In this document: positions 10,095 to 14,345 of the stretch, in pieces
Layout of the letters: each line of letters starts with the position of its first letter
Position numbering within the stretch: the first letter of the stretch is position 1
Assembly (NCBI GenBank): GCA_018780805.1
Contig: JADMJD010000006.1
Location: 1-64,000 of the forward strand
DNA length: 64,000 bases
Reading direction: 5' to 3'
From: Rubrivivax sp.
GTDB lineage: Bacteria; Pseudomonadota; Gammaproteobacteria; Burkholderiales; Burkholderiaceae_C
Translations under genes and position numbers: made by a program
Notes under the pieces: generated by a model
Told to the model about the DNA's origin: nothing
The model's database searches: none
What the model saw: the letters and a program-made list of their open reading frames with translations, nothing else

Positions 10095-11183
10095 TCAGTG
10101 GGCTTCGGGGGTGGGCCAGACGCGCTTGAAGGCCTTGATCGTCAGATGGCGCAGCAGCAGCCCGGGCGGCATGCGCAAGGCGTGCGCCCTGACATACAGC
10201 AGGCCTTCGGCGGCCTCCGCCCCCGCGGTGCGACAGCTGGCGTGCGGGCCGCGCAAAGCCTGGCGCCAGAGCCATGCCAGGCCGCGGTCTTGCCACACCG
10301 GCGCGGCATGGCGCCGTGCCGACGTCAAGGCCTGCGACGGGACAGGCGTGCCCAGGACCTCCACCGCTGCCGTGAGGCCCTGATGCAAGGTTCGGCCCAG
10401 GCCCAGTTGCTCAGCCCGTGTCGCCAGGGCTGACCAAAACGCGGCATTGGCAGCCTGGTGGCGCAACATCAGATCGATGTCCGAGAGGTCCCGCAAGCCG
10501 TGGCTGAGCTCGTCGTTGTGCAGCAGGTGGGTCATGCTGTGCAGCAGCATGTCCACCGGTGACAACACGCGGAAGGCCGGCATCATGGCGCTCTCGGTGG
10601 CGTCGGCCATCAGCAGCCGGCTGTCGGGTTGCACATGGGCGGTGTCGGGCAGGATGGCGTGGTGCACGTCCAGCACCGAGCCCCGGTCGTTGTGCATCAT
10701 CGGCGGGATCTCGTGCATCCACTGCCGGTAATAGCGCTGGTCGTAGGCGTCCAGGTGGGTGGTCATCCAGCCACCCATCATCAGGTGCGCTTCAACTTCA
10801 CCGATGCGATCCTTCGGCACCAGCAGGTCGATGTCGTTGAAGCTGCGGCCCGGGATGCAGGGCGCATCCGCCGCCAGGTAGGCCGCGCCTTTCAGCAGCA
10901 CTGGTTGCAGACGCAAGGGTGCCAACGCGGTCTGCAGGTGGGTCAGTTCACGTTGCACCTCCAGCAACTGGGCCGTGTTCAGGATCTCGGCTGCGCGCAG
11001 CAGCGCCTGGGCCGGCGCGGGCGCAGCGTCTACCAGCCCATCGCGCCGCAGCAGCCAGGCCAGACGCGCCAGCAGGTCGGCGCGGCGGGCCTGCCGCAGC
11101 AGCAGGTCCCATTGCGCAGGCGACAGTGTCCGCACCGATGCCGGTGCGCGCAGGGTTTGCACCACCAGGTCCCGCGCCGTCAT
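10095..11183 (-). CDS. Nucleotidyltransferase family protein (PF14907-like), HPr-rel-A cassette member
   Basis: 362 aa; LLKGAAYLA...GRSFNDIDLLVPKDRI nucleotidyltransferase-like motif; 4-bp overlap with upstream HprK-like gene. Confidence 0.85.
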   Translation of the reverse strand: MTARDLVVQTLRAPASVRTLSPAQWDLLLRQARRADLLARLAWLLRRDGLVDAAPAPAQALLRAAEILNTAQLLEVQRELTHLQTALAPLRLQPVLLKGAAYLAADAPCIPGRSFNDIDLLVPKDRIGEVEAHLMMGGWMTTHLDAYDQRYYRQWMHEIPPMMHNDRGSVLDVHHAILPDTAHVQPDSRLLMADATESAMMPAFRVLSPVDMLLHSMTHLLHNDELSHGLRDLSDIDLMLRHQAANAAFWSALATRAEQLGLGRTLHQGLTAAVEVLGTPVPSQALTSARRHAAPVWQDRGLAWLWRQALRGPHASCRTAGAEAAEGLLYVRAHALRMPPGLLLRHLTIKAFKRVWPTPEAH

Positions 11184-12103
11184 CCAGCGGGCTCCAGGCG
11201 GGCCAGTTGTGTGGTGACGTCTTCCAGATCGCTGTAGACCAGTTCAAAACAACGGCAGCGGTCGATCACCCCCGCCAGCAGGTTGAAGCCTGCCGTGCCA
11301 TGCACGTTGAAGTTGAAGGCGTTTTCCACCAGTTTCACCAGGCCGGCGGCGCGCCCCATCGGCGTCAACGTGGTGGGCGTTTCGGCCTGCCACCGGGGCA
11401 GCACCACCCAAGCAGGCCGGGCATGTTCATGGGCCTGCTCCACAGCCGACAGTGGGGGCTTGAAGTGCGCGACGCTGCCTTTTGTCGTGTCACGCACCAC
11501 GGGGCTGAAGCGCGCTTCGGGGGCAAAGCGGCCGATCACGTCGATCGATGCATTCTTCAGGCTGACCGGGCGCGGCACCGGCACCACGCAGCCGGTGTCA
11601 AGATCGAGTACGGTGAGTTCATCCGACAGCAAACGCCAGCCGCGATGAATCAGCCCGGCGCACAAGGTGCTCTTGCCCGAGCCCGGGGGCGCCGGCAGGA
11701 TCAGGGCCAGCCCGCCGCGTTCCACGACTGCCGCGTGCAGGATCAGGTACTGGTGGCAATGGCTGGTGATGCACCAGTTGAGTCCCCATTCCAGCATCGG
11801 AAAGCCCTGGTCGCCGGGCAGGGGCGCAAACGGCGTCAGGTCGTCGTAGCGGAACTCCACTTGCGGCTGGAACCAGCGGCGCAGGGTGGCGGGGCGGCCG
11901 ACCTGCACGTGGAAATCGGCAAAGGCATCGGAGGCCAACACCGGGTGCGCTGCATAGTGCAGCCGAAAGGCGCTGACGACGGCCGGCAGGCGCGTGCGGA
12001 TGCGGCTGACCACCGGGCCCGTGCGCACAGCCAAGCCTGCGCCCTGCAGCTGGCGCTGGATGTCGAGGGGGGAGAGGTCGCCGAGCTTCACAGAGCGCGG
12101 CAT
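11180..12103 (-). CDS. HprK-related kinase A (HPr-rel-A system)
   Basis: 307 aa; P-loop LPAPPGSGKSTLCAGL and LLSDELTVLD as in the HprK C-terminal domain; neighbours match the HPr-rel-A set. Confidence 0.88.
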   Translation of the reverse strand: MPRSVKLGDLSPLDIQRQLQGAGLAVRTGPVVSRIRTRLPAVVSAFRLHYAAHPVLASDAFADFHVQVGRPATLRRWFQPQVEFRYDDLTPFAPLPGDQGFPMLEWGLNWCITSHCHQYLILHAAVVERGGLALILPAPPGSGKSTLCAGLIHRGWRLLSDELTVLDLDTGCVVPVPRPVSLKNASIDVIGRFAPEARFSPVVRDTTKGSVAHFKPPLSAVEQAHEHARPAWVVLPRWQAETPTTLTPMGRAAGLVKLVENAFNFNVHGTAGFNLLAGVIDRCRCFELVYSDLEDVTTQLARLEPAG

Positions 12104-12375
12104 TCTGTCAGCCCGAGCGTGCGCAGGCTGTCCAGAATGTCGCGCAATGCGGCGATTTCGGTGTCGGTGGCGTCGGTGGCGCCGCAGGCTGCCAGCAGAT
12201 CGGCTTCAGACACCGTGGTGTCCCCAGCATCGACCAACAAGCCAAAAATTTCCGCAGGCCCGTCGGTCAACAGGTGCGTGGCGGTGGCCGCGGGGTCGTA
12301 GACCACCACCTGCTCATCCCAGCGACGCCACTGCAGCGCAGCGCTCTGGGACAGTTGCCACGCGGGCGTCACCAT
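12088..12375 (-). CDS. PqqD-family peptide chaperone, HPr-rel-A system
   Basis: About 95 aa from MVTPAWQLSQSAALQWRRWDEQVVVYDPAATATHLL; start codon shares a base with the stop of the upstream ORF (TGATG); overlaps HprK-like start. Confidence 0.82.
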   Translation of the reverse strand: MVTPAWQLSQSAALQWRRWDEQVVVYDPAATATHLLTDGPAEIFGLLVDAGDTTVSEADLLAACGATDATDTEIAALRDILDSLRTLGLTECRAL

Positions 12376-13013
12376 CAAGCGCTGGTGTAGGGCATTGTCG
12401 TCTTGAGCCACGGCGTGATGCCGCCGTTGCCCTGCGGCGTGCAATCGTCGCAGCGCCACTTGATGCCGGCCGTGGGCTCATGGTAACCACGGGTCTTGTA
12501 GCCACGCCACAGGTCCTGCGCGTACCCGGTGCTGCAGACCGCCGCCGGCACCTTGCCGGCACAGGCGTTCAGATAGGCAGCAGCCAAGTGCGCGACCATG
12601 CACTTCTCGCCTGAGGTTTCGGTGTAGCTCACACACTCAAGCAGGGTCTTTCCACCGTAGGTCGGATGGTCGTCAAAGCACTCGCGGAACAGCTTGGGAT
12701 TTGCGCCGTTGTCCTTCTTGCAGGATGCAGGCCACTTGCTCCAGCTGCCCGTCGGGCCGCAGCTCTTCCAGCCGGAGGGCTTGCAGCCGGTGACCGGATG
12801 GTGGATGTCCGGCCGACTGGTGCTCAGCGATGCAAAGCTGGAAGCCGGCGTCGTCGTGTAGTTGTAGGTGGCGCGCACCGGGTTGCTGACCACGGTCAGC
12901 ATGGCGGGCGCCAAGGCAGCACTGCCTTGCAGCAGGCGACGGCGGCCGGCGCTGCGGGGGGCGGAAGCCGAGGGACCGGCAGGGTCGTTCGGTCGGTCGG
13001 AAGCCATCTTCAC
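12375..13013 (-). CDS. Secreted Cys-rich protein of unknown function with twin-arginine-like signal; candidate client of the HPr-rel-A cassette
   Basis: 212 aa; RRRLLQGSAALAPAMLTVVSNPVRA signal-like N-terminus, 10 Cys in the mature region; stop overlaps the PqqD start. GTG start at 13013 or ATG at 13007. Confidence 0.75.
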   Translation of the reverse strand: MKMASDRPNDPAGPSASAPRSAGRRRLLQGSAALAPAMLTVVSNPVRATYNYTTTPASSFASLSTSRPDIHHPVTGCKPSGWKSCGPTGSWSKWPASCKKDNGANPKLFRECFDDHPTYGGKTLLECVSYTETSGEKCMVAHLAAAYLNACAGKVPAAVCSTGYAQDLWRGYKTRGYHEPTAGIKWRCDDCTPQGNGGITPWLKTTMPYTSA

Positions 13014-13208: not shown

Positions 13209-13958
13209 TTACTTGGCAGTAGCCTTGCGGCGGCGGGCCATGCCCAGACCAGCCAGGGCCAGACCGGCCAGGGCCAGGGAGCCGGGTTCAGGGACGGCTT
13301 GAATAATGTCAACCGTGAAATCAAGGGACCCTGCGGAACCCGTACCGTCGATCATCAGCTGCAACGCTCCGACCCGTGAAAAGTTGGCCGTGCCGAAGTT
13401 GGAGAACGAAACGTACTTCTGACCGACGAAGTTGTCCATGATGGTGGTGGTGAAGCTGTCAACTTCCCCATCGGTGATCATGTCGTCCAAGTTTTTATCG
13501 GTCCACACCGAGAAGGTCAGGTCGAAGGTCTGGTCGGCAGTAATCACGTCGATCAAAAACGACACCGCTCCGATGTTCAGTTCAACACCGACATCACCCG
13601 AAGCGTCATCCAGGCCGTCAGCATCAACGCCAGCCAAGGTGTTAGCCCCGTCCCAGCGAACCAGGCCCGTGCCTTGCGCGGCACCGGCCTGTCCAGACGA
13701 AGATGCGTAGCTGAGAACGTCGTCAGCCACGCCCATCGACACCGAGCCGCCGCCGGCAGTCTTCGTGACAGCGAGATCGCGGTATCCACCAAGGATGGAG
13801 CTGTCCGACCCGGCGGATGTGGCGTCGCTGCCACCGACCACGTTGGTCGAGGCAGTTGCTTGATCGAAGCTGAAGTCGTCAATTACGACGCCAGCGTTCG
13901 CCGCCACACCAGCAACCGCCAGAGCGACCGCCGAAACGATTTTCGAGAACTTGAACAT
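13209..13958 (-). CDS. PEP-CTERM sorting domain protein (XrtA substrate)
   Basis: N-terminal signal MFKFSKIVSAVALAVAGVAANA; C-terminal VPEPGSLALAGLALAGLGMARRRKATAK. Confidence 0.95.
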   Translation of the reverse strand: MFKFSKIVSAVALAVAGVAANAGVVIDDFSFDQATASTNVVGGSDATSAGSDSSILGGYRDLAVTKTAGGGSVSMGVADDVLSYASSSGQAGAAQGTGLVRWDGANTLAGVDADGLDDASGDVGVELNIGAVSFLIDVITADQTFDLTFSVWTDKNLDDMITDGEVDSFTTTIMDNFVGQKYVSFSNFGTANFSRVGALQLMIDGTGSAGSLDFTVDIIQAVPEPGSLALAGLALAGLGMARRRKATAK

Positions 13959-14026
13959 GTTGGGCTCCTGAGAGGTTGCTTGCTGTCTGTGAGGGGGCAA
14001 ATCGACCGCCCTCATGCCTCTTCCTA

Positions 14027-14042
14027 AGCAGGTGCTGTGCCA
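14027..14042 (-). promoter_or_regulatory. Putative sigma-54 promoter (-24/-12) of the PEP-CTERM gene
   Basis: Minus strand TGGCAC-AGCAC-CTGCT; matches TGGCAC-N5-TTGCW except one base, correct GG/GC spacing, about 70 bp upstream of the ATG. Confidence 0.7.
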
Positions 14043-14345
14043 GCTTGGTTTGTTCATTTGAAATCAATAACTTGCGTCGATCTCTGGCCCACAGACCAGC
14101 TGCTGGAGGCCAGGGCTGTAAAGTCTTTCGACACCCTCTGCGGGGCGGGCGCCTGGAGCTTGGCGTGAATAATGCGCTCCGGCTGCAGCAGCGGCGTGCC
14201 GGCCGCTTGGTGGCCTTGTTCGCCTGTGCCAACATCGCGCTCCGGTGCCTGGGCTGAGCGCCGGTTCCGTCCTGCCGGCCCTCCAGATGCATGCTGGCAC
14301 GCCGACAACCTAGCTTATATAGAACACCGCAGAGGATACGTCCCC

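Follow-up and report, generated by a model that had tools for sequence, protein, structure and literature searches.

A predicted twin-arginine precursor is the likely client of a PqqD_rel_X/HprK_rel_A/NTP_transf_5 cassette in Rubrivivax

The LPP clusters of Bacillota (PMC13381572, Nat Commun 2026) combine a discrete RRE with an HprK-like kinase and an NTP-transferase and have no lasso cyclase. Their precursors of 35-200 aa (the characterized core measures 45 aa) carry a conserved N-terminal leader with a YxxP motif ahead of a variable downstream part, and the loci lie near polysaccharide genes. The kinase LppK, encoded with the RRE and an NTP-transferase of unknown activity, phosphorylates Ser3 of the core just past the leader, and LppN had no detectable effect in a heterologous host (PMC13381572). 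The clusters also possess an SpI-like peptidase and an MsbA-like exporter. In the phospho- and phosphoglycosylated lasso peptides, among them paeninodin and pseudomycoidin (PadeK, ThcoK, PsmK, PsmN), an HPr kinase homolog phosphorylates a C-terminal serine of a precursor that is delivered by the PqqD-like protein B1, and a nucleotidyltransferase homolog is needed for placing hexoses on the phosphate. For pseudomycoidin, PsmK phosphorylates the serine and PsmN is needed for the addition of one or two hexoses (PMC8498205, PMC9266682). The RREs of the LPP and lasso systems bind a YxxP/WxxP leader motif, and the lasso-peptide kinases require a His-Lys-Asp-Asp set (PMC9266682).

NCBIfam furthermore names an HPr-rel-A system, but its entries describe just a kinase (TIGR04352, HprK_rel_A) and a chaperone (TIGR04353, PqqD_rel_X). 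No model for a substrate was found in NCBIfam or Pfam, and no paper in the literature searched uses either name. Tat substrates with proofreading chaperones, such as TorA/TorD and DmsA/DmsD, offer another point of comparison. Tat chaperones are known to recognize the hydrophobic core of the signal they bind (PMC3316669).

The locus described here lies in a window comprising positions 1-64,000 of contig JADMJD010000006.1 from Rubrivivax sp. (GCA_018780805.1). The minus strand encodes, in operon order, a substrate candidate, PqqD_rel_X, HprK_rel_A and NTP_transf_5. The features are listed below, with substrate residues numbered from the ATG start.

12375..13007, minus strand: substrate candidate, Tat-like precursor of 210 aa; ATG at 13007, GTG at 13013 possible; no Pfam or NCBIfam family
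12870..13007, minus strand: leader, residues 1-46; RRRLLQG; conserved h/c region ...APxxLTxxSxPVxA; predicted cleavage after Ala46 (AxA-like)
12939..12944, minus strand: twin-arginine codons Arg22-Arg23, invariant (117-118/118 non-redundant relatives)
12816..12842, minus strand: serine triad S56-x3-S60-x3-S64, candidate acceptors; Ser56 12842-12840, Ser60 12830-12828, Ser64 12818-12816
12444..12800, minus strand: mature folded domain, residues ~70-188; predicted mostly helical; pLDDT >90 for most of it; no PDB match
12088..12375, minus strand: PqqD_rel_X (TIGR04353), peptide chaperone of the RRE type; start codon overlapping the stop of the substrate gene (TGATG)
11180..12103, minus strand: HprK_rel_A (TIGR04352) kinase, HprK/PEPCK fold (predicted); invariant His123, Lys144 (P-loop GSGKST), Asp161, Glu162
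10095..11183, minus strand: NTP_transf_5 (PF14907), nucleotidyltransferase-like, DxD (FNDIDLLV); 4-nt overlap with the kinase gene

The cassette resembles the LPP clusters in its discrete RRE, HprK-like kinase and NTP-transferase, in the serine close behind a conserved leader that is followed by a variable part, in having polysaccharide genes nearby, and in the absence of a lasso cyclase. Unlike LPP, it has a Tat-like leader, a mostly folded cargo and a candidate serine triad 10-18 residues past the cleavage site. Neither an SpI-like peptidase nor an MsbA-like exporter was found among the cassette genes and immediate neighbors scanned in the window, and the text of PMC13381572 mentions neither Pseudomonadota/Proteobacteria nor the twin-arginine pathway. 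In contrast to the lasso systems, there is no cyclase or B2 protease (leader peptidase) among the cassette genes, and the candidate serines lie at the start of the mature protein. Membership in either group was rejected because the defining features fail. The kinase and chaperone do belong to the HPr-rel-A system. By analogy with TorD and DmsD, one would expect the cytoplasmic chaperone to recognize the twin-arginine signal and to postpone export while maturation is under way, but it is of the RRE type, and the maturation would be a covalent serine modification rather than insertion of a cofactor.

The four genes are translationally coupled, with the substrate gene first. The PqqD_rel_X and HprK_rel_A genes have 16 nt in common, and stop/start overlaps run along the whole series, so that we read the genes as a single unit. 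The substrate frame covers 13013..12375 from the GTG (212 aa) or 13007..12375 from the ATG (210 aa). The ATG is probably the true start, because a GGAG sits 8 nt before it and only ~2 nt before the GTG. The open reading frame at 12375-13013 given in a preliminary description thus holds, on the minus strand and with the more likely start at 13007.

A protein search of 300 genomes of the same family recovered homologs of the substrate in 27 of them (best E 3e-39 at 42% identity; weakest relatives at ~28%), and nearly all of the best 15 directly precede PqqD/HprK/NTP genes. Scanning GTDB contigs with the single substrate protein gave no match; with the kinase alignment as query instead, 80 named loci were obtained, from Burkholderiales, Thiobacillus, Gallionella and others as well as Alphaproteobacteria and Malonomonas rubra. 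No Pfam or NCBIfam family covers the mature part in the window protein or in 47 relatives, and a PDB sequence search with the substrate returned chance matches only.

The substrate is a near-obligate member of the cassette. With the kinase as query, 138 HprK_rel_A loci were collected. In 131 of them (~95%), a profile built solely from relatives found with the substrate protein matches the co-directional gene immediately upstream. Only three further matches occur in ~12,900 ORFs, all of them in L064 and L130, two loci with tandem copies. Seven loci lack such a match: contig ends truncate L041 and L134, L034-L036 carry more divergent forms recovered by an iterated profile, L130 has its substrate copies further off, and L065 is without explanation. 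The remaining genes are similarly constant: PqqD_rel_X directly precedes the kinase in 134 of 139 related loci and the nucleotidyltransferase is present in 135 of 138, mostly directly downstream. Where the nucleotidyltransferase gene is flipped (L206-L211), the cassette genes remain together. Across a class-wide sample of 369 genomes, the profile is found in 38 of 40 genomes with HprK_rel_A above its cut-off versus 10 of 329 without (Fisher p 5e-40); the 40 kinase genomes span 26 GTDB families, and related genomes among them are not independent. Two tandem substrate genes occur in the cassettes L014/L028, L064 and L130.

Site statistics were drawn from 119 relatives made non-redundant at 60% identity, because the 138 loci include some identical or nearly identical genomes that had been picked up twice. 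In pairwise comparison the mature parts average ~26% identity, and the RR and the serine cluster are the best conserved features of the family. The leader consensus (S/A)RR(R/K)(L/F)x(K/R) fits the Tat pattern. Cleavage after Ala46 is inferred because small residues are kept at -3 and -1. The TIGR01409 model (TAT signal) scores 12.9 bits on the substrate, under its cut-off of 16.7, and the choice of Tat over Sec therefore rests on the conserved RR and the consensus. A tatC gene is present in the genome. We infer export by the Tat pathway, although the route itself has not been shown. The LTxxSxP stretch of the leader is more conserved than export alone would require, and the family consensus contains no aromatic-xxP motif (YxxP/WxxP).

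Within the mature protein, no other Ser/Thr column is as well conserved as those of Ser60, Ser56 and Ser64. Among non-redundant orthologs adjoining HprK_rel_A, Ser60 is present in 105/107 (98%), Ser56 in 101/108 (94%, plus four Thr) and Ser64 in 96/107 (90%), and the next Ser/Thr column reaches 63%. The triad is complete in 90 of 107 relatives, and its residues lie 10, 14 and 18 positions past the predicted cleavage site. In most members it is flanked by a cysteine pair, Cys52 (97%) and Cys72 (83%); the window protein has T52 and V72 at these columns and a Cys75 near the second. At the alignment positions of residues 60-64, the sequence SGNxS is found in many relatives and places an N-x-S sequon inside the triad; in the window protein, Asn is absent from this stretch.

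The preliminary description, made from sequence alone, had also proposed that the protein is twin-arginine-like, Cys-rich, and modified by its PqqD/HprK neighbors at a Ser/Thr cluster at its mature N-terminus. The protein does contain RRRLLQGSAALAPAMLTVVSNPVRA, TYNYTTTPASSFASLSTSR and ten Cys, as quoted there. The twin-arginine leader held up across the orthologs. The cluster held in part, since only the three serines are conserved and the Thr run at 51-53 is not. The ten cysteines were rejected as a family-defining feature: cysteine counts in relatives vary widely, many having only 2-6, and the window protein lacks the conserved pair. The proposal that a disulfide-rich fold would need modification before export failed, as disulfides would form after export and provide no such argument. 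That the neighboring genes modify the protein is supported by gene association, RR and triad, with phosphorylation inferred. The description held that orthologs beside HprK_rel_A lacking a conserved Ser/Thr or RR would refute the idea; the alignment was run and this outcome was not met.

HprK_rel_A scores 392 bits to TIGR04352 (curated cut-off 200), PqqD_rel_X 37.7 bits to TIGR04353 (curated cut-off 35) and NTP_transf_5 172 bits to PF14907. The kinase has an HprK/PEPCK fold as predicted by its model (pLDDT 94.6), which matches PEPCK (E 7e-7) and HprK/P (E 7e-4), known relatives of the fold. Across 42 kinases, His123, Lys144, Asp161 and Glu162 never vary, the second acidic residue being Glu, not Asp. 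PqqD_rel_X is homologous to PqqD-type RREs: in a profile-profile comparison, it aligns with PF05402-positive PqqDs at 97.2% probability (E 3.7e-11). A direct PDB sequence match to the lasso RREs TfuB1/TbiB1 was not significant (E ~0.6).

The substrate was modeled with AlphaFold2 on a 48-sequence alignment. The leader is predicted at low confidence, as is a short helix at residues 55-59 that holds the first part of the triad. The predicted fold has no match in PDB or viral structure libraries, and no function was therefore read from it. A 475-aa secreted protein (L197:484-1911) carries the substrate domain (CTPGYW...AALLNA) at its C-terminus, without the RR leader or triad and away from the kinase. 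This single example suggests that the triad goes with the cassette and not with the domain.

Substrates of other shapes also occur. Some HprK_rel_A cassettes encode the same leader in front of an unrelated core, with a Ser 1-3 residues past the AxA and no triad. The smallest core seen, ~12 residues (GSACISCNASLI), belongs to a full HprK_rel_A cassette (L161:778-1008). Five genomes encode divergent HprK genes that score ~50-92 bits to the HprK_rel_A profiles. Short RR-leader peptides of 57-107 aa mostly adjoin these genes and are otherwise found in the same genome. They follow the pattern SRRxFLKxxxYxAPxxLTLxAxPxxA with a conserved Gly-Ser after the AxA and have no NCBIfam or Pfam family:

L198:3640-4513, short RR-peptide locus
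L199:4476-4700, short RR-peptide locus
L200:4576-6388, short RR-peptide locus
L201:5156-6442, short RR-peptide locus
L202:3849-4064, short RR-peptide locus
L203:3337-3657, short RR-peptide locus
L204:3434-3706, short RR-peptide locus

PqqD and NTP_transf_5 are present in some of these loci, and L199 has PqqD (PF05402), NTP_transf_5 and the kinase together. Between the HprK_rel_A and divergent groups, hhalign matches the kinases along most of the protein (E 2e-25), and the chaperones likewise (E 4e-11). The short-peptide loci may represent a sister system of RiPP size. All groups share an RR leader, the AxA and then a Ser.

In the window, the cassette is surrounded by an XrtA exopolysaccharide locus (EpsB, PrsK, EPS export and, at ~23.4 kb, the exosortase XrtA). 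Exosortase (PF09721) occurs in 37 of 40 HprK_rel_A genomes versus 90 of 329 genomes without the kinase (p 5e-16, uncorrected for phylogeny), a co-occurrence that is a correlation only. With neighbor identities read by eye from sequence, about one third of the 80 named loci adjoin PrsR/EpsB-type genes and Thiobacillus-type loci adjoin unrelated genes; a tie between the cassette and the exopolysaccharide locus type was thus rejected. A PEP-CTERM protein is encoded directly upstream of the cassette (13209-14057, minus strand; 29 bits to PF07589) and could be a client of XrtA.

The position of the substrate gene before the cassette and the three near-invariant serines behind an export signal make this protein the likely target of the encoded enzymes. 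We consider it probable that it is a dedicated client, modified by PqqD_rel_X, HprK_rel_A and NTP_transf_5 before Tat export, although measurements of a modification are lacking for every member. In the cytoplasm, PqqD_rel_X would take up the precursor by binding its leader. HprK_rel_A would then phosphorylate at least one of Ser56, Ser60 and Ser64, which we infer from their near-invariance and from the chemistry of LppK and the lasso kinases. NTP_transf_5 may add a second group, a nucleotide or a sugar, onto the phosphate; this step is inferred from pseudomycoidin and is the weakest. PqqD_rel_X may also hold back export by shielding the leader from the Tat translocon as long as modification is unfinished. 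The twin-arginine leader would then direct the protein to the translocon, with cleavage near Ala46, and the modified, folded protein would work beyond the inner membrane. Its partner there is probably the exosortase/exopolysaccharide apparatus, for which there is only correlation. Modification, acceptor residue, export route and function of the substrate are all inferred and none is shown.

Several points speak against this reading. The leaders lack YxxP/WxxP, LppN showed no detectable effect in its heterologous host, and TIGR01409 stays under its cut-off. The conserved serines could also be structural, given that the triad lies between two mostly conserved cysteines and that the unrelated-core class has no triad. 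Taken further, this becomes a rival in which triad and Cys52/Cys72 form a capped loop for folding or binding and the cassette makes or regulates something else. The flanking cysteines and the low-confidence helix at 55-59 are compatible with a local fold that explains serine conservation. We nevertheless regard this as improbable, as the substrate gene almost never occurs without the cassette, unrelated-core substrates share just the leader and the following Ser, and an RRE implies a peptide client.

The enzymes might instead act differently, with NTP_transf_5 nucleotidylating or glycosylating first and the HprK-like protein acting on a small donor molecule rather than a protein serine. The near-constant presence of NTP_transf_5 and the exopolysaccharide genes beside about a third of the named loci favor this view, as does the unsettled activity of PsmN, which may be either a nucleotidyltransferase or a glycosyltransferase (PMC9266682). 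It seems doubtful, however, since characterized HprK-like kinases of RRE clusters phosphorylate peptide serines and the catalytic residues are conserved here. Alternatively, the RR leader could be an RRE-recognized, RiPP-type leader or a Sec signal, and the protein either exported by Sec or retained as an intracellular phospho-switch. The sub-threshold TIGR01409 score and the excess conservation of LTxxSxP would fit. Against this stand the Tat consensus with its near-invariant RR, the small -3/-1 residues, the presence of tatC and the precedent of PMC3316669, and we think it unlikely. Modification of a dedicated client before Tat export remains our preferred reading. A bolder version would see a system widespread in Pseudomonadota that uses RiPP-type machinery (RRE, HprK-like kinase and nucleotidyltransferase) to mark folded Tat-exported proteins. 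The RRE would double as a Tat proofreading chaperone, and the protein would be anchored through its phospho- or phosphoglyco-Ser triad to an exosortase-served exopolysaccharide or envelope; as a whole, we hold this to be a long shot.

The kinase and chaperone of the HPr-rel-A system were named by NCBI, and the present work points to a client in most kinase genomes and to specific acceptor residues. If true, phospho-RiPP chemistry, described between 2016 and 2026 for short and lasso peptides, would extend to folded exported proteins and the Tat pathway. This raises the question of whether an RRE gates Tat export until a serine is modified. The co-occurrence with exosortase furthermore provides a handle on what exosortase-bearing bacteria place outside the cell.
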